32,627 bases of DNA from a virus. Shown piece after piece: positions 3,011-28,457 of this stretch. Each line of letters begins with the position of its first letter. The stretch's first letter is position 1. Location: positions 1 through 32,627 of the IMG/VR virus record IMGVR_UViG_3300032291_001745; one strand, written 5' to 3'. The position numbers and the translations under genes are program-made. The notes under the pieces were generated by a model. The model worked only from the letters and a program-made list of their open reading frames with translations, was not told the DNA's origin and did not search any database.

Positions 3011-4528
3011 ATGAATCCATTATTATTGACAGACGGCTACAAAACAGGCCACCACCAACAATACCCAAAAGGAACCACGTTGGTTTATTCAAATTTTACA
3101 CCACGTTCTAACAAGTACGCCCCTAAAGGATGTAATGAAGTAGTTGTGTTTGGTACACAAATGGTTATGCAGCAATTGCATGAAGCGTTTCAAAACGATT
3201 TCTTTAGTAGACGTAAGGAAGACGTATGTGGGGAAATGAAACGTGAATTGTCTATGTACTTAGGAACTGATTACGATGTTTCACATTTTGAAGCATTACA
3301 CGATTTAGGCTACTTACCTATTTGTGTTAAGTCCTTACCTGAAGGAACTAAAGTACCTATGAAAGTTCCTGTATTGACTATTTACAATACACACCCCGAT
3401 TTTTACTGGGTTACGAATTATTTAGAGACTATCCTGTCTAACTTGTTGTGGAAGCCAATGACATCTGCTACTATTGCTCATCAATATAGAAAAGTATTGA
3501 CTAAGTGGATGGAAAAAACAGATAAAGAAAGAGCTTGGTTTATTGATTGGCAAGGTCATGACTTCTCAATGAGAGGTATGGATTCAGCAGATGCTGTTAT
3601 TAGTTCAGGTTTAGGTCATTTAACTTCATTCTTAGGTTCAGATTCATTACCTACTATTTATGGAGCTAGAAAATATTATGGTGCGGAAGGTATGGTTTGT
3701 GGTTCTGTTAATGCTACCGAGCATAGTGTAATGTGCGCTGGCGGTAAAGAAGATGAGGTTCATACATTCCGTAGATTGTTAGAAACTTATCCAACAGGTA
3801 TTTTATCAGTTGTATCTGATACTTGGGACTTATGGAAAGTATGTACCGAGCACGTGGTTACATTGAAAGACGAGATTTTGGCTCGTGATGGTAAATTGGT
3901 TATTCGTCCTGATTCAGGTGACCCGGTAGATATTCTTTGTGGCAAAATTAAAGATGACTTTTCTATAATTACACCTACTAAAGAAGAGTCTAAAGGTGTT
4001 ATTGAATTACTTTGGGATGTGTTTGGTGGAACAATTAACGAACAAGGTTACAAAGTTCTTGACCCACACATCGGAGCTATTTATGGTGATTCAATTACTA
4101 TTGATAGAGCAGATGAGATTTGTAAACGTTTAGAAGATAAAGGATTTGCTTCAACAAACGTAGTATTAGGTATTGGTTCATTTACTTATCAATATAATAC
4201 TAGAGATACATTTGGTTTTGCGATGAAGGCAACCTATGTTGAGTTGATGGAAGAAAAAACTACGGATTACGGAAATTCTGGTACTGAAGTACCCATTAGA
4301 GTTAAAGTAGGTAGAGAAATCTTTAAAGACCCAATTACAGATGACGGAACTAAAAAATCGGCAACTGGATTGTTAGCGGTATTTAAAGATGAAATAAATG
4401 GTTCTTATCAATTACATGACCGTTGTGATTGGAAAACAGATGGTACCGGAGAACTAAAGACAATCTACCTCAATGGAGAGTTTCACAACCAAACGACACT
4501 AACTCAGATTAGGTCTTTATTGAAGTAA
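3011..4528 (+). CDS. nampt: Nicotinamide phosphoribosyltransferase family protein (Nampt/Namat-like)
   Basis: Nampt joins nicotinamide to PRPP to form NMN. The family pattern is complete: LLLTDGYKTGHHQQYP at the N-terminus, the DWQGHDFSMRG region near 179-189, Asp211 in LGSDS, the phosphorylated-histidine region ATEHS with His238, and RPDSGDP at 299-305. Length (505) is near that of vertebrate and phage Nampt (about 490). With a Prs relative in the same block and no NMN adenylyltransferase in view, the pair also fits NARP1, in which a Nampt relative (Namat) joins nicotinamide directly to ADPR-pyrophosphate to give NAD+. A strong terminator follows, closing the operon. Confidence 0.93.
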   Translation: MNPLLLTDGYKTGHHQQYPKGTTLVYSNFTPRSNKYAPKGCNEVVVFGTQMVMQQLHEAFQNDFFSRRKEDVCGEMKRELSMYLGTDYDVSHFEALHDLGYLPICVKSLPEGTKVPMKVPVLTIYNTHPDFYWVTNYLETILSNLLWKPMTSATIAHQYRKVLTKWMEKTDKERAWFIDWQGHDFSMRGMDSADAVISSGLGHLTSFLGSDSLPTIYGARKYYGAEGMVCGSVNATEHSVMCAGGKEDEVHTFRRLLETYPTGILSVVSDTWDLWKVCTEHVVTLKDEILARDGKLVIRPDSGDPVDILCGKIKDDFSIITPTKEESKGVIELLWDVFGGTINEQGYKVLDPHIGAIYGDSITIDRADEICKRLEDKGFASTNVVLGIGSFTYQYNTRDTFGFAMKATYVELMEEKTTDYGNSGTEVPIRVKVGREIFKDPITDDGTKKSATGLLAVFKDEINGSYQLHDRCDWKTDGTGELKTIYLNGEFHNQTTLTQIRSLLK

Positions 4529-5415: not shown

Positions 5416-6158
5416 ATAAATTAAAAAATGATGATTTTTTTGGTAGATGTGAAAAGAAATTTGGTAAAAAATTTATATACCACAATGATTATAGTGGTAT
5501 GGACAAGCCAATTAAAATTACTTGTCCCATCCACGGGGATTTCCAAATATTATCTGAATATCATTGGCAAAGCAAGGATGGTGGTTGTTTAAAGTGTCAG
5601 AAAGATAAACATTTATTAAAGTATATTGATAACGGAAACATTTTTATTGAAAAATCGAAAGTAATACATAATAATAAATATGATTACAGTAAAACCAAAT
5701 ACGTTAATAATAACGTTAATGTGATAATAATATGTCCCGAACACGGGGAATTTGTTAAAAAACCGACTTGTCATTTAAATAGAGGTCAAGGATGCGTTGA
5801 ATGTAGTAAAAAAACTATGGGGGGTTATGGTGGATATAATCTTAAAAATGCTGAAAAATTTAAAGATAAATGGATAAATAAACGTGGCTTTATTTATTTT
5901 GTTATAATGAATAACGAACTTGAAAAGTTTGTTAAAATAGGTATAACCACCCAAAAAAACATACGAAGACGATTTTCAGGGTATAAATATGATGTTGAAG
6001 TATTTGATTTTATTGAAGATAATTTGTATAATCTTGTTTATAAAGAAAAAATAATTTTAGAAAAATTTAAAGAATTTAAATATAAACCAAAACAACACTT
6101 TAGTGGATACCAAGAATGTTTTAATTTAAAAATATGCGAAAATATAAAGAATATTTAG
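5412..6158 (+). CDS. GIY-YIG (T5orf172-like) homing endonuclease with zinc-finger repeats
   Basis: The 248-residue protein starts at GTG 5412. The first half has two copies of a Cys/His module, CPIHGDF...C..C and CPEHGEF...H....GC.EC (around 38-62 and 110-133), typical DNA-binding zinc modules of phage homing proteins. The C-terminal third (GFIYFVIMNNELEKFVKIGIT, then RRRFSGYKYDV, then Glu) fits the GIY-YIG/T5orf172 nuclease fold. It ends in TAG, which is rare here. The stop lies inside the rebuilt nucleotidyltransferase start. Confidence 0.8.
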   Translation: MNKLKNDDFFGRCEKKFGKKFIYHNDYSGMDKPIKITCPIHGDFQILSEYHWQSKDGGCLKCQKDKHLLKYIDNGNIFIEKSKVIHNNKYDYSKTKYVNNNVNVIIICPEHGEFVKKPTCHLNRGQGCVECSKKTMGGYGGYNLKNAEKFKDKWINKRGFIYFVIMNNELEKFVKIGITTQKNIRRRFSGYKYDVEVFDFIEDNLYNLVYKEKIILEKFKEFKYKPKQHFSGYQECFNLKICENIKNI

Positions 6159-6911: not shown

Positions 6912-7316
6912 ATGAAAATCTGGGAAAAAATATACAACTTGAAAATCGTACCATCATTTTTGTTATGGTCATCGTTTTTATTCATTATCTTTTATAGTGT
7001 TTGGGTGTTTGGTGCGGGATTAGATAAAAACCTTTTTTTATCAATATCAATTGTATTTGCAATCATTGGTGGGGTAATTGTAGAACTTGGAAAGGGTGGA
7101 ATGAAAAACAGCCAAAAGTTTTGGGACATGGCTAAAATAGTTGAAAATAAACTTGACGATGCAACATCTACAGATGAATTAGATGGTATCATTATCGAGT
7201 ATTTTGTTAAAGGTGGTAAACTACGTGAACTATCTATGGGAGGTCCTCATATTACTGAAATAAATAGACTTTATACAATATACAAAGTTTACTATAAAGT
7301 TCAGAACAAAGAGTAA
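6912..7316 (+). CDS. Small membrane protein with two helices
   Basis: The 134-residue product has two hydrophobic helices (about residues 13-33 and 40-60), then a soluble tail of about 70 residues rich in charged helices. The second helix ends in GGVIVELGKGGMKNS, so the tail probably faces the cytoplasm. It has its own terminator-promoter junction upstream. Family not recognised. Confidence 0.6.
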   Translation: MKIWEKIYNLKIVPSFLLWSSFLFIIFYSVWVFGAGLDKNLFLSISIVFAIIGGVIVELGKGGMKNSQKFWDMAKIVENKLDDATSTDELDGIIIEYFVKGGKLRELSMGGPHITEINRLYTIYKVYYKVQNKE

Positions 7317-7728: not shown

Positions 7729-8055
7729 ATGAAATAGATAACTAATAGACTTTATGTCGTAAGTAGAAAAGATTTGAAGCCGGGTGCACAAATCGCCCAA
7801 TCAGCACATTCAATTGCTCAATTTTTCTTGGAGTACCCTGAATTATCAAAAGAGTGGAACAATAATTACCTTATTTGTTTATCCACCGAAAACGAACAAT
7901 CATTAAAAAAATTATTAGACAAATTAACGTCGTTTGGTATTCCCATCTCTACGTTCTATGAACCTGATTTGAACAATCAGTTAACATCCATTGCGTTCCA
8001 ACACAATGAGAAGAGTCACGGACATACCAAATCATTACCACTTGCACTTAAATAA
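7729..8055 (+). CDS. pth2: Pth2-type peptidyl-tRNA hydrolase with in-frame amber codon 3
   Basis: Pth2 frees tRNA from stalled or dropped peptidyl-tRNA. The family signature is clear: strand LYVVSRKDLKPGAQIAQSAHS, then a YLICLSTENEQSL strand-helix, and a C-terminal LTSIAF strand with basic residues. The frame begins ATG AAA TAG (7729-7737) and then reads ITNRLYVVSRKDL without interruption, so the essential first strand lies after the TAG. Starting at the next plausible codon (TTG 7774) would delete that strand. The suppressor tRNA (anticodon CTA) at 8878 would decode the TAG. With TAG read as one residue the protein has 108 residues; glutamine is my guess because CAG to TAG is one change. Confidence 0.85.
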
Positions 8056-8062
8056 ACAAACT

Positions 8063-8320
8063 ATGAAATAGATTACAGAAAAAAAAGAAGAAATTGTGTT
8101 TCATTTCAACAAGAAACACCTTCAGGACGAAACAATCCCGATGTGGGTTGTGAAATGTCGTGGTGACACCCATTACGTTGACCACGTTGATGTATCACCA
8201 GGAATTGGTTTTTCAACAAAGGAAACTCCCAATAACTCGCACACCAAAGGGAGTATAAAATTTAAAGGTAGATTATCTATCGGTGTGGAAAACAATAAAA
8301 CTATTGCAAAAATATATTAA
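8063..8320 (+). CDS. Conserved phage protein with in-frame amber codon 3
   Basis: The frame begins ATG AAA TAG ATT ACA (8063 on), the same amber start as the upstream pth2 gene, and continues to TAA at 8320. With TAG translated the product has 85 residues; starting at GTG 8096 would give 74. The body (FHFNKKHLQDETIPMWVVKC, then THYVDHVDV and GSIKFKGRL) looks like a small beta-rich phage protein seen in other marine and Bacteroidetes phages. Function unknown. It lies 7 bp after pth2, so both amber genes are probably one transcript. Confidence 0.7.
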
Positions 8321-8321
8321 A

Positions 8322-8690
8322 ATGAAAAACACAAAACACAACCCAACAATGATGATTAAATCGGCTTTCGCAAATAAAATTCATAAACTAATTAACAAAT
8401 GTTGCGGTATTAAAAAAGGTACCAAGGAATGGTATGACTGTAGAAGACAACACAACCAAAACGTTTGGAGCGATTTTCGTAAATTAACCGACCAAGAAAA
8501 AATCGAATTATTTAATCAGATTGAAGCGATTTATGTGGAAAGTAATACAGAATTATCAAACTACTATAACGACAAAAACTTTAAGAAATATGTGAATAAG
8601 AAAAGAATGGAAAGAGGTTATGTTCCAAAGAAAAAAACAACTAAAGAAGAATATCTGAAAATGGTTGAAAATATGGAAAAAGTTTTTTAA
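8322..8690 (+). CDS. Unknown basic protein
   Basis: The ATG at 8322 follows the previous stop by one base and gives 122 residues; a longer frame from GTG 8283 would overlap the previous gene. The protein is rich in Lys, Asn and Gln and mostly helical, with a CCGIKKGTKEWYDCRRQHN segment holding three Cys near the middle and a basic tail (KKRMERGYVPKKKTTKEEY). Family not recognised. It ends 9 bp before the RNA cluster. Confidence 0.6.
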   Translation: MKNTKHNPTMMIKSAFANKIHKLINKCCGIKKGTKEWYDCRRQHNQNVWSDFRKLTDQEKIELFNQIEAIYVESNTELSNYYNDKNFKKYVNKKRMERGYVPKKKTTKEEYLKMVENMEKVF

Positions 8691-8699
8691 CTTTGAACC

Positions 8700-8796
8700 A
8701 TGTGATTGAAAAGTGACAATGACGATTAGACCAAGTGGGGCACACGTAAAATTGTATCAGTCGAAAGTCGAGGTGTTAGACCACCATCAATCACAT
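8700..8796 (+). ncRNA. Cloverleaf-capable structured RNA, unknown
   Basis: A perfect 10-bp stem ATGTGATTGA (8700-8709)/TCAATCACAT (8787-8796) closes a 77-nt interior. Inside, ACAAT/ATTGT, a TCGA/TCGA hairpin and a GGTG/CACC hairpin can form, giving a multi-branched shape. The octamer TTAGACCA occurs twice. It sits directly before two tRNA-type genes, but canonical T-loop and anticodon-loop sequences are missing, so I do not call it a tRNA. No ORF covers it. Confidence 0.45.
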
Positions 8797-8800
8797 ATAA

Positions 8801-8874
8801 GGTCAGGTGGCCGAGTACTTAGGCGTGGGTCCGCAAGACCCTCTACGGTAGTGGAAATCTATCCCTGACCTCCA
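8801..8874 (+). tRNA. tRNA-Cys-like gene (anticodon GCA) with atypical loops
   Basis: The cloverleaf spacing is exact: acceptor GGTCAGG/CCTGACC, a 15-nt D arm, a 17-nt anticodon arm with loop CCGCAAG (8831-8837), a 4-nt variable region, a T arm GGTAG/CTATC (one G-U pair), T at the discriminator position and encoded CCA. Anticodon GCA and U73 are both hallmarks of tRNA-Cys. Oddities are C instead of T at position 33, a T-T mismatch at 27-43, no GG in the D loop, and T loop TGGAAAT instead of TTCGAAT. It may be degenerate or a divergent functional tRNA. Confidence 0.6.
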
Positions 8875-8877
8875 AAT

Positions 8878-8950
8878 GGCTCTGTGGTGTAGTGGTTAAC
8901 ACAACATTCTCTAAAAGTGCTAGTCACGGGTTCGAATCCCGTCAGGGCCA
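8878..8950 (+). tRNA. Amber suppressor tRNA (anticodon CTA)
   Basis: The acceptor GGCTCTG/CAGGGCC (one G-U pair), D arm GTGT/ACAC with the GG-containing loop AGTGGTTA, anticodon loop CTCTAAA (8909-8915), 5-nt variable region, T arm ACGGG/CCCGT with canonical loop TTCGAAT and A73 make a sound tRNA. The anticodon is CTA at 8911-8913, which reads UAG. CCA is not encoded, so it needs a nucleotidyltransferase such as the one at 6134. The D arm (GGTGTAGTGGTTAACAC) resembles tRNA-Gln, so glutamine is the likely charge; this is inference. Confidence 0.9.
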
Positions 8951-8952
8951 CT

Positions 8953-21725: not shown

Positions 21726-22382
21726 ATGGATAAATCTGATGTAATTTTCGATTTAATTAATTTTAATATTGAGGGTGTTGATGTATATCATCACAACGGT
21801 TCCTTGTGGCTAATATTCACAGATAATAAAAAATGGATAATTGAATTAACTAAAGACGGTACCTTATGGTATAATCATTATTTTTTCACCAATTGTTTTA
21901 AATATTTATCGTTAGATGTTATTCATAATCAACACTATATTACCAAATGGGTTGAAAATGTCATACAAAATGGGGTGATAAACACCAATCATCCCCAATG
22001 GTGCTTTACCTGGTCGGTTGAAAATGTCATACAAAATGGGGTGATAAACACCATTTCCGCAGAATTGGTAGCGCCACTGGAAGTTGAAAATGTCATACAA
22101 AATGGGGTGATAAACACCCCCAAACACACGTCACAACAATTTAATTCTGTTGAAAATGTCATACAAAATGGGGTGATAAACACCATCCTTGTTGTATGCG
22201 GTGGTTTGTCCCATGTTGAAAATGTCATACAAAATGGGGTGATAAACACCACTGTAGGTGTTTCCAACCACACAACTAACGTTGAAAATGTCATACAAAA
22301 TGGGGTGATAAACACCATCGCACATGGGTTGATGTCCGCGAACACCGTTGAACATGTCTTACAAAATGGGGTGAAATTGTGA
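21726..22382 (+). CDS. CRISPR-like in-frame repeat protein, copy 1
   Basis: The 218-residue product has an N-terminal domain of about 75 residues (starting MDKSDVIFDLINFNIEGVDV, with WLIFTDNKKW and GTLWYN) and then seven 22-residue units. Each unit is the constant VENVIQNGVINT plus ten variable residues; the last is degenerate (VEHVLQNGVKL) and ends in TGA. The DNA of the constant part is identical in six units. The N-terminal domain differs from copy 2 mostly at synonymous sites or by mild changes, evidence for selection on a protein. Function unknown. Confidence 0.75.
   Translation: MDKSDVIFDLINFNIEGVDVYHHNGSLWLIFTDNKKWIIELTKDGTLWYNHYFFTNCFKYLSLDVIHNQHYITKWVENVIQNGVINTNHPQWCFTWSVENVIQNGVINTISAELVAPLEVENVIQNGVINTPKHTSQQFNSVENVIQNGVINTILVVCGGLSHVENVIQNGVINTTVGVSNHTTNVENVIQNGVINTIAHGLMSANTVEHVLQNGVKL
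21951..22382 (+). repeat. CRISPR-like array 1 (36-bp repeats, 30-bp spacers) inside a coding frame
   Basis: Repeats begin at 21951, 22017, 22083, 22149, 22215 and 22281, all identical over 36 bp, starting GTTGAAAATGTCATAC and ending GGTGATAAACACC; a degenerate seventh is at 22347. The end can form a GGTG/CACC hairpin with an ATAAA loop. The six 30-bp spacers share no sequence and are roughly half G+C by hand count, against an AT-rich genome. The 66-bp period keeps the reading frame and no spacer adds a stop. No cas gene lies in the window. Confidence 0.8.
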
Positions 22383-22446: not shown

Positions 22447-23688
22447 ATGGACAATTCTGAAGTAATTTTCGATTTAATTAATTTTAATATTGAGGGTGTT
22501 GATGTATATCATCACAACGGTTCCTTGTGGTTAATATTTACTGATGATAAAAAATGGGTAATCGAATTAACTAAAGACGGTACCTTATGGTATAATTATT
22601 ATTTTTTCACCAATTGTTTTAAATATTTGTCATTAGATGTCGTTAATAATCAACACTATATTACCAAATGGGTTGAAAATGTCATACAAAATGGGGTGAT
22701 AAACACCAAAACTTTTAAGCGCATGCACGCCAGACTGGTTGAAAATGTCATACAAAATGGGGTGATAAACACCCACTACCACTGGGACCTTGAATCGACA
22801 ATCGTTGAAAATGTCATACAAAATGGGGTGATAAACACCGGAATGCCGATGGGGGCGCTAGTCGCATCTGTTGAAAATGTCATACAAAATGGGGTGATAA
22901 ACACCTCGTTCCCCCTGAGCCACTCACACTCACACGTTGAAAATGTCATACAAAATGGGGTGATAAACACCATCGCACATGGGTTGATTTCCGCGAACAC
23001 CGTTGAAAACGTCATACAAAATGGGGTGACAAACACCATGTCGGCACGATTGGTTGCTGCCAAAATGGTTGAAAATGTCATACAAAATGGGGTGACAAAC
23101 ACTAAATGTGGTTCGATTAATGATGAACAACGTGCTGAAAATGTCATACAAAATGGAATAAGAAACACCATCCGACAGGATATTACTCAATTAAGTGAAG
23201 TTGAAGATGTGATTCAAAATGGGGTTAAAGAGGTTACAGCAGGAAAGACAGAAAGATTAACAATGATTAATGAGACCATTCAAAATGGGGTTAAGGAAAT
23301 CAAAACAAATGACAGTTACCGTAATTATTTCAAACAAAATAATAAAACAGAAAAGGTAATTGAAAATGGTGTGAAAATTATTAAACCTGCTTTTAAATAC
23401 GTATGCAACCCAATTAATTTTGAAATAATAAAACAAGAAGAAACGAGATATTGTACTGTTAAAGATGTTGTTGATTTTGGTGTTAAAAAAACCTTACCGG
23501 ATAACTTATTTGACACATCTGTTGTTGAATACAACATTGAAAATGGTATTAACGAAGTTATACCATTACCGGCACAAGATGGTAATCGAGATTGGGGTGT
23601 GTATTATCAAAGACAAGGGGATGTCCTAAAACCACATGTAAAATATGTTGACGATGCAATTAATTTAGGAATTAAGAAGACTATATAA
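22447..23688 (+). CDS. CRISPR-like in-frame repeat protein, copy 2
   Basis: The 413-residue paralog of the gene at 21726 has the same N-terminal domain (MDNSEVIFDLINFNIEGVDV) and 10 regular 22-residue units, then units that are longer and diverged. Constant parts drift from VENVIQNGVINT to VENVIQNGVTNT, VEDVIQNGVKEV, TEKVIENGVKII, VKDVVDFGVKKT and VEYNIENGINEV, keeping the pattern V-x-x-V-I-x-N/F-G-V-K. A non-repeat C-terminal tail follows. The repeat core is thus an old protein fold, with new DNA-identical units at its N-terminal side. Confidence 0.75.
   Translation: MDNSEVIFDLINFNIEGVDVYHHNGSLWLIFTDDKKWVIELTKDGTLWYNYYFFTNCFKYLSLDVVNNQHYITKWVENVIQNGVINTKTFKRMHARLVENVIQNGVINTHYHWDLESTIVENVIQNGVINTGMPMGALVASVENVIQNGVINTSFPLSHSHSHVENVIQNGVINTIAHGLISANTVENVIQNGVTNTMSARLVAAKMVENVIQNGVTNTKCGSINDEQRAENVIQNGIRNTIRQDITQLSEVEDVIQNGVKEVTAGKTERLTMINETIQNGVKEIKTNDSYRNYFKQNNKTEKVIENGVKIIKPAFKYVCNPINFEIIKQEETRYCTVKDVVDFGVKKTLPDNLFDTSVVEYNIENGINEVIPLPAQDGNRDWGVYYQRQGDVLKPHVKYVDDAINLGIKKTI
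22672..23301 (+). repeat. CRISPR-like array 2 (36-bp repeats, 30-bp spacers) inside a coding frame
   Basis: Perfect 36-bp repeats, identical to array 1, begin at 22672, 22738, 22804, 22870 and 22936. Those at 23002, 23068 and 23134 carry a few changes, and those at 23200 and 23266 many. Spacers are 30 bp throughout. The spacer at 22972-23001 differs from the array 1 spacer at 22317-22346 by one base; all others are private. The spacer at 22840 is the most G+C-rich (19 of 30). Confidence 0.8.
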
Positions 23689-26484: not shown

Positions 26485-26504
26485 ATGATTTTTTTAGAAA
26501 TCAT
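26485..26504. terminator. Possible bidirectional terminator between convergent genes
   Basis: The 7-bp stem ATGATTT/AAATCAT with a short loop lies between genes ending at 26440 (plus) and 26501 (minus). AT-rich and weak. Confidence 0.35.
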
Positions 26505-27172
26505 ATTAAAATAACGCCACCCACATTAACCATTTTTCTTATTTCTTCTTCTGAATATTTTTTGGATAATGGTGTATCACGTAAATCCAAATTACCATCA
26601 ACGGTGCGAAGATTTCCAAGGGATTCGATATTGGAATCTTGTAAATCCAACCATCCACCAACGGAGCGAAGGTTTCCAAGGTTTTTAATGTCAGAACCTG
26701 ATAAATCCAACCCACCACCAACGGAGCGAAGATTTCCAAGGGATTTGATATTGGTTTCACGTAAATCCAACCTACCACCAACGGAGCGAAGGTTTCCGAG
26801 GGATTCGATTTTGGATGATGATAAACCTAAATCACCACCAACGGTTTGAAGGTTTCCAAGGGATTTGATTTTGGTCCCATATAAATCCAACCAACCACCA
26901 ACGGTTTGAAGGTTTCCGAGGGATTTAATTTCGGAATATGCTAAAAACAAATTACCACCAACGGATTGAAGGTTTCCAAGGGATTCGATTTCGACATATC
27001 GTAAATTCAAATCACCACCAATTGTATATAGAGGATTACCTTCGGATTCCATATATTCTTGCAAAAAATTCCAATCATTATTAAAATATTTTAACGATGG
27101 AATATGAAGAACCTCAGGTTCTTCCTGTTCAATCAATCTTCTGTATTGTGATTCAGTTATTATTATTTTCAT
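26501..27172 (-). CDS. LRR-like repeat protein, copy 1 (last in operon)
   Basis: The 223-residue product has the leader MKIIITESQYRRLIEQEE, a short domain (HIPSLKYFNNDWNFLQEYM), and then about seven 20-residue LRR-like units (ESLGNLQSVGGNLFL type) forming a probable solenoid. The end SKKYSEEEIRKMVNVGG is shared by all copies. Its start overlaps the upstream copy's stop (TAATG). The leader holds L-I-E, a prohead-protease-like site. A binding or decoration role is inferred. Confidence 0.7.
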   Translation of the reverse strand: MKIIITESQYRRLIEQEEPEVLHIPSLKYFNNDWNFLQEYMESEGNPLYTIGGDLNLRYVEIESLGNLQSVGGNLFLAYSEIKSLGNLQTVGGWLDLYGTKIKSLGNLQTVGGDLGLSSSKIESLGNLRSVGGRLDLRETNIKSLGNLRSVGGGLDLSGSDIKNLGNLRSVGGWLDLQDSNIESLGNLRTVDGNLDLRDTPLSKKYSEEEIRKMVNVGGVILI

Positions 27173-27846
27173 TACATATAAATATTACCACCAACCTGAA
27201 CCATTTGTCTTATTTCTTGCTCTGAATATTTTTTAGATATCTGTGTATCACGTAAAAACAAATCACCACCAACGGAGTGAAGGTTTCCAAGAGATTCGAT
27301 TTTGGTTCCTTCTAAAAACAAATTACCACCAACGGAGTGAAGGTTTCCAAGGGATTCGATATTGGATTCATATAAATTCAAATCACCACCAACGGAGTGA
27401 AGGTTTCCAAGGGATTTGATTTTGGTTTCATATAAACCCAAATCACCACCAACGGAGTGAAGGTTTCCAAAGGATTTGATTTTGGTTCCATGTAAATTCA
27501 AACCACCACCAACGGAGCGAAGGTCTCCAAGGGATTCGATATTAGTTCCATATAAATTCAAATAATTACCAACAGATTGAAGATTCCCTAAAGATTCGAT
27601 TTTGGTTTTATATAAACTCAAATAACCACCAACGGATAGGAGATTTCCAAGGGATTTGATATTGGTTCCTCGTAAATTCAAATCACCACCAATGGTATAA
27701 GGTGGATTTCCTTCGGATTCCAGATATTCTTGCAGAAAATTCCAATCATCATTAAAATATTTTAACGATGGAATATGAATAACATCCAAGCGTTCTTCCT
27801 GTTCAATTAATCTTTTATATTGTGATTCAGTTATTATTATTTTCAT
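27172..27846 (-). CDS. LRR-like repeat protein, copy 2
   Basis: The 224-residue paralog has the same leader (MKIIITESQYKRLIEQEE), linker, seven to eight LRR-like units and C-terminal cap (KKYSEQEIRQMVQVGG then NIYM). The NIYM codons read AATATTTATATG and double as the TATTTATA element for the next gene. Confidence 0.7.
   Translation of the reverse strand: MKIIITESQYKRLIEQEERLDVIHIPSLKYFNDDWNFLQEYLESEGNPPYTIGGDLNLRGTNIKSLGNLLSVGGYLSLYKTKIESLGNLQSVGNYLNLYGTNIESLGDLRSVGGGLNLHGTKIKSFGNLHSVGGDLGLYETKIKSLGNLHSVGGDLNLYESNIESLGNLHSVGGNLFLEGTKIESLGNLHSVGGDLFLRDTQISKKYSEQEIRQMVQVGGNIYM
27177..27184 (-). promoter_or_regulatory. TATTTATA element (minus strand) inside the end of LRR copy 2
   Basis: TATAAATA on the plus strand, i.e. 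TATTTATA on the minus strand, lies 4 bp before the ATG of LRR copy 1 and overlaps the upstream NIYM codons. Confidence 0.4.
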
Positions 27847-28457
27847 TACATATAAATATTACTACCAACATTAACCATTTGTCTTATTTCTTCTTTGGAA
27901 TATTTTTCGGATATTGGTGTATTACGTAAATCCAACCAACCACCAACGGTTTGAAGGTTTCCGAGGGATTCGACATTGGTTCCTCGTAAATCCAAACTAC
28001 CACCAACGGATTGGAGGTTTCCAAGAAATTCGATTTTGACTCTATGTAAACTCAAATTACCACCAACGGATGTTAAATTTCCAAGGGATTGGATTTTGGT
28101 ACCATATAAACTCAAATAACCGCCAACGGATTGAAGGTTTCCAAGGGATTCAATATTGGTGTTATATAAATTCAAATAACCACCAACGGATTGGAGGTTT
28201 CCAAGGGATTCGATTTTGGTATTAAATAAATCCAAATAACCACCAACGGATGTTAAATTTCCAAGGGATTGGATTTCGGTTCGTCGTAAATCCAAATTAT
28301 CATCAATTGTATATGGAGGATTTCCTTCAGATTCCAAATATTCTTGCAAAGAATTCCAATCATTATTAAAATATTTTAACGATGGAATATGGAGAACTTC
28401 CGGTTCTTCCTGTTCAATCAATCTTCTATATTGTGATTCAGTTATTATTATTTTCAT
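27846..28457 (-). CDS. LRR-like repeat protein, copy 3 (first intact in operon)
   Basis: The 203-residue paralog with the leader MKIIITESQYRRLIEQEE has about six LRR-like units (SLGNLQSVGGYLNLYNTNI type) and the same cap (EKYSKEEIRQMVNVG). Upstream lies the stump of a fourth copy carrying the same stop/start junction. Confidence 0.7.
   Translation of the reverse strand: MKIIITESQYRRLIEQEEPEVLHIPSLKYFNNDWNSLQEYLESEGNPPYTIDDNLDLRRTEIQSLGNLTSVGGYLDLFNTKIESLGNLQSVGGYLNLYNTNIESLGNLQSVGGYLSLYGTKIQSLGNLTSVGGNLSLHRVKIEFLGNLQSVGGSLDLRGTNVESLGNLQTVGGWLDLRNTPISEKYSKEEIRQMVNVGSNIYM
27851..27858 (-). promoter_or_regulatory. TATTTATA element (minus strand) inside the end of LRR copy 3
   Basis: Same arrangement as at 27177, before the ATG of LRR copy 2. 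Confidence 0.4.

Follow-up and report, generated by a model that had tools for sequence, protein, structure and literature searches.

Organization of the locus

The window, i.e., the whole stretch of DNA analysed (32,627 nt, IMG/VR record IMGVR_UViG_3300032291_001745), carries a cluster of small genes followed by two tRNAs:

7729..8055, plus strand: pth2 (peptidyl-tRNA hydrolase type 2), start ATG AAA TAG, 108 aa with the TAG read
7735..7737, plus strand: in-frame TAG, candidate gate, codon 3 of pth2; next base A; conserved in the relative L003
8063..8320, plus strand: gene X, 85 aa with the TAG read, previously unannotated
8069..8071, plus strand: in-frame TAG, candidate gate, codon 3 of X; next base A
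8323..8690, plus strand: next gene of the cluster, no TAG gate, unknown function; L003 has one too
8801..8874, plus strand: tRNA-Cys(GCA) (ARAGORN, Rfam)
8878..8951, plus strand: suppressor tRNA, anticodon CTA at 8911-8913, predicted trans-acting key (ARAGORN, Rfam)

The initial annotation had described two consecutive genes starting with ATG AAA TAG, both frames open after the TAG, and a CTA-anticodon tRNA about 0.6 kb downstream, and all of this was confirmed. A pattern count over the window found ATG AAA TAG at 7729-7737 and 8063-8071 and nowhere else, the reversed pattern being absent; likewise, ATGAAATAG occurs exactly twice within the window, at the pth2 and X starts. Beyond the TAG, the pth2 frame is open until the TAA at 8055 and the X frame until the TAA at 8320. 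The former matches the Pfam PTH2 family (PF01981; E 6.6e-06, 26.8 bits against a curated cut-off of 23), to which window pth2 is assigned, with a predicted hydrolase activity. The CTA tRNA, detected by ARAGORN and also by Rfam (63.7 bits, cut-off 29), lies 558 nt past the end of X. In L003, a near relative that is 89% identical across the pth2 match, both ATG AAA TAG starts and the CTA tRNA are kept, and the gates are retained while the flanks and many silent positions have diverged. The co-occurrence of two gates and a CTA tRNA in the window is far above chance.

Conservation of the early stop in X and pth2

X was found to be encoded by 338 IMG/VR contigs in an alignment-based scan, of which the best 80 were taken; a first scan with X had given 79 loci. 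In total, 162 loci with a profile hit were examined (the window, three named phages and the loci from both scans, contigs found by both being partly counted twice), and they fell into 58 clusters at 90% core identity. The interval between the ATG and the core of X contained a TAG in 113 of the 162 loci (32 of the 58 clusters), and never a TAA or a TGA. The other loci comprised 44 with an open ATG (21 clusters), one with a TAG within the core (L099) and four that were not decidable. Among the 113 gated X genes, the TAG was located at codon 3 (79 loci), codon 4 (8), codon 5 (15), codon 6 (5) or codons 10-13 (6), after peptides as diverse as MK, MS, MTQQ, MQ, MM, MKTEL, METLV and others. A comparison of 45 distinct 5' ends, all having their TAG ten codons ahead of the core, showed this codon to be invariant at all three bases (45/45), and the codons after it varied mostly at their third bases (TAT/TAC, TGT/TGC, AAG/AAA, GTN). 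Such third-base drift with kept residues indicates that the stretch following the TAG is translated.

Decayed or misassembled genes would account for the stop itself and nothing further. Against this explanation, which can practically be dismissed, invariant residues of the X body are maintained over 24 diverse sequences, third bases vary while residues do not, and independent metagenomes as well as isolates show the same arrangement. One of these isolates, RHph_I1_18, has an unannotated X (MSEFM[TAG]NESCREVIFHF...) at most 0.1 kb from a tRNA-Pyl(cta). No Pfam or PHROG family was found for X. Its structure was modeled with confidence as all-beta (pLDDT 92; 76 for the long form), and the structure search gave no clear PDB match (best Foldseek E 0.5, VIA-align Z 3.7), nor any match at E 0.001 for the long form. 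In bacterial and archaeal genomes, none of 30 pattern-matched candidate stretches encoded X.

The pth2 profile gave hits in 76 loci. After manual reading, pth2 carried a TAG in its first codons in 67 loci (22 clusters), a count that omits L118 (a true gate), L114, L115 and L099. When X had a clean start (L053-L063 and others), it was mostly close behind a TAG-gated pth2. Twelve loci had been called ungated by the script. Of these, L112, L114 and L115 have a leader gate, in L160 and L162 the TAG precedes an internal Met of pth2, and in L058 and L149 the contig end cuts the locus. Five stayed ungated (L111, L105, L106, L108 and L116). In L111 a CTA tRNA is present beside the ungated X, which counts against the gate reading; in the other four, no CTA tRNA was found by ARAGORN. 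In L116, a CTA-loop tRNA-like stretch (~5940-6030) was observed immediately upstream of a truncated X frame.

A putative suppressor-gated X family would be marked by a TAG either between the ATG and the FHFNK core of X or in the adjacent upstream pth2, together with a suppressor anticodon matching the stop; the window has both TAGs and a CTA anticodon for TAG. Beyond what had been noted from the window alone, the survey reveals a wide phage family whose stop may be located in X, pth2 or both genes, or else in a leader peptide.

Linkage of the suppressor tRNA and co-variation with the stop

Of 147 gated loci, 118 had a CTA tRNA on the sequence fetched; its absence from that sequence in the other 29 counts against the gate reading. 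Every CTA tRNA of the examined loci shared its strand with X (128/128). By cluster, a CTA tRNA accompanied 35 gated and 4 ungated ones and was lacking from 13 gated and 3 ungated ones, with 3 undecided. In whole gated contigs, the CTA tRNA was located elsewhere on the contig (G025, G034) or only a degenerate one was seen (G026), whereas G036 (188 kb) and G028 (55 kb) yielded none; the contigs may be incomplete. Permissive ARAGORN output was noise and was discarded, except for a degenerate CTA tRNA recognized by visual inspection. When 80 distinct CTA tRNAs were compared with ordinary tRNAs, their closest counterparts had mixed identities (Trp 14, Met 11, Thr 9, Arg 9, among others), which point to no particular inserted amino acid.

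The type of stop followed the anticodon. In Phosso, which has two CTA tRNAs, pth2 begins, after a Shine-Dalgarno (SD) motif, with ATG AAG TAT TAG GTT (MKY[TAG]..). In its relative Atu_ph07, the corresponding start is ATG ATT GGC GAA CAC TTT TGA ATT (MIGEHF[TGA]IN..), and the sole suppressor tRNA is UCA, as also stated in the accessible part of PMC6102473. Both pth2 genes had been annotated from an internal Met, dropping the first conserved strand. Similarly, members of one clade with CTA tRNAs have, before pth2, the leaders MKLDKL[TAG]VTKPP*, MKLNKL[TAG]VTKPP* and MKPNKL[TAG]VTKPP*, and L112/L349 of the same clade have MKKQKLYEL[TGA]VIEPP* with a TCA tRNA at the matching place. A UCA suppressor anticodon thus goes with a TGA gate in two cases. 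It is highly probable that stop type (UAG or UGA) and tRNA anticodon evolve together and that the tRNA acts as a dedicated gene regulator, the cis element being a conserved stop, either in the target gene or in a leader peptide that ends next to an SD-masking hairpin.

As a side observation, the CTA suppressor tRNA of DLP3 (L363 1843-1916) is labelled tRNA-Glu in the public record. In OLIVR1 (L366 2312-2388), a tRNA labelled tRNA-Val has an 8-base anticodon loop with CCTA, lies next to a TAG leader and may perform four-base decoding.

Translation start and stop context

An SD motif was present in 72 of the 113 gated X genes and, in 71 of these 72, lay 5-9 nt from the ATG that precedes the TAG. 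Between the TAG and the core, 17 of the 58 clusters contain no ATG, GTG or TTG at all. The sequence data place the predicted translation start at the ATG ahead of the TAG.

The alternative would be a start after the TAG (at ATT, ATA or GTG, or by re-initiation), ATG AAA TAG then being a minigene or drop-off sensor comparable to lambda bar. This alternative draws on the ATT that follows the TAG in most gates (91/113 for X, 53/67 for pth2), and on the pth2 product being the kind of enzyme that relieves minigene toxicity. However, seven further codons are also seen after the TAG (GTT, AAT, AAC, CCC, GTC, GTA and ACA), and the SD spacing suits the ATG and not the post-TAG codon. Homologues starting after the TAG, which would have spoken for this alternative, were sought, and no gated homologue has a downstream start codon with its own ribosome-binding site. 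A downstream start was rejected on the SD spacing, the clusters devoid of start codons and these homologues. Besides, a minigene does not explain that TAA never substitutes for TAG, nor that the stop turns into TGA where the tRNA is UCA. Altogether the alternative is improbable, but a minigene sensor could still work alongside readthrough.

The base following the stop (+4) was A in 28, G in 3, C in 1 and T in none of the X gates counted by cluster, and A in 19, G in 3 and C or T in none of the pth2 gates. Over both gate types (54 cluster entries, 32 for X and 22 for pth2), the counts were A47, G6, C1 and T0, as compared with T85, A74, G43 and C43 at ordinary TAG stops of the whole contigs examined. 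The gates avoid +4 T(U), a base that, according to the accessible part of PMC5289835, strengthens bacterial termination and lowers readthrough.

Stop codon usage across genomes

A reassignment of TAG over the whole genome (code 15, as in crAss-like or Lak phages) would make the two early TAGs just two among many sense codons. The presence of a CTA tRNA fits this possibility, as does the fairly low number of TAG stops in some contigs. Stop usage was measured as the share of ORFs of at least 80 aa ending in TAG. It was low in the window (3/49, counted on non-overlapping ORFs, in agreement with the three of about 60 genes given by the initial annotation), in G001 (1/52) and in G027 (4/158). However, ordinary ORFs do end in TAG in G025 (36/447), G034 (28/169), RHph_I1_18 (18/219) and Phosso (78/578). 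The further values were 9/163 in G020, 8/145 in G021, 36/235 in G026, 47/248 in G036, 9/81 in G028, 23/157 in G039 and 41/726 in Atu_ph07, with 21/155 and 2/22 in the ungated contigs G037 and G035. Moreover, the standard code leaves the annotated structural, replication and metabolic genes of RHph_I1_18 uninterrupted (full-length capsid, portal, terminase, polymerase and tail genes are annotated), and X was the sole homologue-supported gene with a TAG ahead of its body in an ORF-gap scan. A neutral sense TAG would also be expected to swap with sense codons, which none of the 45 gated 5' ends does. In the window itself, the CTA tRNA is there, whereas a TAG used as a general sense codon with TAG stops gone is not. 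Genome-wide recoding, rejected within the contigs examined on TAG stop usage and on the intact annotated genes, is very unlikely, and the earlier proposal of a switch rather than of whole-genome recoding held in every test made (start, SD, TAG invariance, stop usage and TGA/UCA switch).

Candidate leader-type gates

Sixteen relatives carry the stop within a leader peptide, typically of the form M..[TAG]VxKPP-stop. This leader was first met upstream of the gene preceding the DLP5 suppressor tRNA (MK[TAG]VYKPP*), and it is identical in Summit and DLP3; these three phages are mutually close relatives among the 16. Other leaders are MKS[TAG]IRPPP* in DSS3_MAL1, IEPL[TAG]IKKPP* with a GTG start in OLIVR1, ML[TAG]FKPP* in RHph_I1_18 and MK[TGA]IVFKPP* in Atu_ph07. 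The contigs L355-L358 and L360 have one as well, with two TAGs in series in one of them (MY[TAG]VFNFP[TAG]VFKPP*). A generic leader regex applied to the 4.81 Mb of fetched DNA gave 6 hits with TAG, 3 with TGA and none with TAA; one hit of each of the first two kinds appears fortuitous. A strict pattern over all viral contigs gave TAG in 6 contigs, TGA in none and TAA in 1, inside another gene. L187 and L032 (regex) and L361 (pattern) were judged chance matches and rejected as leaders, and the whole-record patterns AAGGAG..ATG..TAG and ATGAAATAG were too noisy and were left unused. In the window, where the gate is direct, the regex found no leader.

Stop and anticodon were paired as TAG-CTA in 12 of the 16 leaders and as TGA-TCA in 2, without any mismatch; of the remaining two, OLIVR1 combines TAG with the CCTA of the 8-nt loop and L355 has no suppressor in the 10 kb covered. 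The leader of OLIVR1 ends in TAG again, which, like the 8-nt loop of its tRNA, counts against the gate reading. In NCTB, a relative with respect to the leader-downstream gene, neither a tRNA (in 5.3 kb) nor such a leader was found.

When the segment from the leader stop to the following start codon was folded, the predicted minimum-energy structure paired the downstream gene's SD in 14 of the 16 cases, and in 15 once the leader of Atu_ph07 is folded along; in RHph_I1_18 it was free. In the 14 SD-pairing leaders, the 5' arm of the hairpin always started at most 7 nt from the last leader stop (14/14). Upon shuffling, hairpin z-scores were at or below -2 in 10 of the 16 leaders (lowest, -5.9) and not significant in six (the three Delepquintavirus leaders, L112, Atu_ph07 and RHph_I1_18); these six, like the free SD of RHph_I1_18, count against the reading. 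Downstream of the leader, family Y (gp070 of DLP5, without PHROG match) was found by tblastn in DLP5, Summit, DLP3, MAL1 and OLIVR1, and from translations judged by eye in L355, L356, L357 and L360. In L356, a Pth2-like domain is joined to Y (it matches Pfam weakly, at E 0.033, and shows an EPDL motif as in Pth2), and Pth2 hence recurs in both the direct-gate and the leader branch.

These leaders bear on the purpose of the gate. A real gate could serve a selfish end, making the suppressor tRNA indispensable (addiction) without any sensing, and the constant location of the tRNA on the X strand, usually near, would suit it. Yet a leader gate that has a second stop and masks the next SD in a hairpin resembles a regulatory device and not merely an obligate one, and addiction appears to be an unlikely though serious candidate.

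Proposed mechanism

Many bacteriophages appear to lock a small operon by an early stop, with the suppressor tRNA usually adjoining. At the sequence level, the locus family presents a conserved stop, a matching anticodon, no other start, and a TAG that still is a normal stop elsewhere. It is very probable that the stop codon gates translation and that a suppressor tRNA encoded by the phage itself opens this gate. In the best reading, this tRNA would be the trans-acting key of the Pth2/X/Y operon, via direct readthrough or via a readthrough-dependent attenuator.

In the direct form, the ribosome would initiate at the ATG and reach the TAG a few codons on, where release factor 1 (RF1) would terminate unless a charged CUA suppressor tRNA decodes the codon. 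Since RF1 would stop translation at the gate without the suppressor, pth2 and X would be made only when the tRNA is present, charged and outcompeting RF1. In the leader form, readthrough would take the ribosome about five codons further to a second stop, usually after Pro-Pro, adjoining the hairpin that masks the ribosome-binding site of the next gene. Ribosomes pause at Pro-Pro before a stop. Termination at the first stop would leave the hairpin arm free, whereas a pause at the PP-stop would cover it, and the ribosome paused at the leader end would, by analogy with ermC/cat, open the hairpin. Suppression extends other proteins too and may increase the drop-off of peptidyl-tRNA; as Pth2 would clear the latter, Pth2 made in proportion to suppression would act as damage control. 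The likely use of the gate would be to couple Pth2 and its partners to how much suppression takes place in the cell, for feedback or damage control; equally possibly, the tRNA and the operon form a coherent feed-forward loop (cf. the accessible part of PMC7969014).

Relation to known systems

The ermC/cat attenuators combine a leader peptide, a pausing ribosome and a hairpin masking the next ribosome-binding site. In the phage leaders, by contrast, the pause site would be reached only through a suppressor reading the leader stop, with no drug or free amino acid as signal. The autoregulation of prfB uses +1 frameshifting and senses RF2, whereas here there is no frameshift and the input would be a dedicated suppressor tRNA. 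The likeness to prfB lies in an early in-frame stop that senses termination strength (PMC13245932, accessible part). In code-15 phages (crAss-like, Lak and others), a phage CUA tRNA likewise reads UAG in a standard-code host; in the accessible parts of PMC13037316 and PMC9523058, TAG is a general sense codon of many genes, whereas here it still terminates most genes and would be decoded at a single conserved gate or at two, close to where one operon begins. A synthetic "leak dampener" also makes a stop-bearing gene dependent on a co-induced suppressor tRNA. As far as the accessible part of PMC7969014 goes, it is man-made and works in E. coli, while the phage form is natural, widespread and also found as a leader attenuator.

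Suppressor tRNAs have been repeatedly reported in phages that do not recode, such as XacN1 (PMC5852040), Summit (PMC9022506), Atu_ph07 (PMC6102473) and RsoM2USA (PMC8504454). In the accessible parts of these reports, the authors could not identify targets for the two CUA tRNAs of XacN1 or for the suppressor tRNA of Summit, and named no specific suppressor target gene for Atu_ph07 and RsoM2USA. The targets proposed here would cover the suppressor tRNAs of Summit and Atu_ph07. For XacN1, neither X nor a leader was found in the 75 kb searched with the X profile and the leader regex. Its two suppressor tRNAs (L124 36047-36205) are followed by one ORF and by a 2.5-kb stretch without annotated genes, in which neither gate nor leader was found. 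No description of a stop-codon/tRNA gate was met in the literature searched, which covered few subscription journals and did not extend to a 2022 survey of phages that recode.

If true, the gate would supply the target that has been lacking for many "orphan" suppressor tRNAs in standard-code phages. Concrete, conserved and testable targets are now named for such tRNAs, several of which belong to isolates whose laboratory hosts are known by name. The gate would add a regulatory principle in which a stop codon is the lock and a tRNA the key, explain why annotation missed X in RHph_I1_18 and mis-started pth2 in Phosso and Atu_ph07, and give a simple search rule for further cases.

Additional features of the window

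A block of about 95 nt (~8700-8797), just upstream of the tRNA-Cys, is conserved in L003 (~6937-7037), has complementary ends and is possibly an unknown structured RNA; a search against Rfam at E 5 gave only tRNA and tRNA-overlapping matches for it. Elsewhere, the genes at 711-1643 and 3011-4528 resemble ribose-phosphate pyrophosphokinase and nicotinamide phosphoribosyltransferase (NAD salvage). Two CRISPR-like arrays (21949-22374 and 22670-23227) share the 36-nt repeat GTTGAAAATGTCATACAAAATGGGGTGATAAACACC, with a constant period of 66 nt and differing 30-nt spacers; both double as open reading frames, each after a near-identical stretch of 139 nt. Finally, three tandem paralogues made of short repeats (..SLGNL.SVGG.L.L..) lie on the minus strand at 26501-28457 and have the N-terminus MKIIITESQY.RLIEQEE in common.
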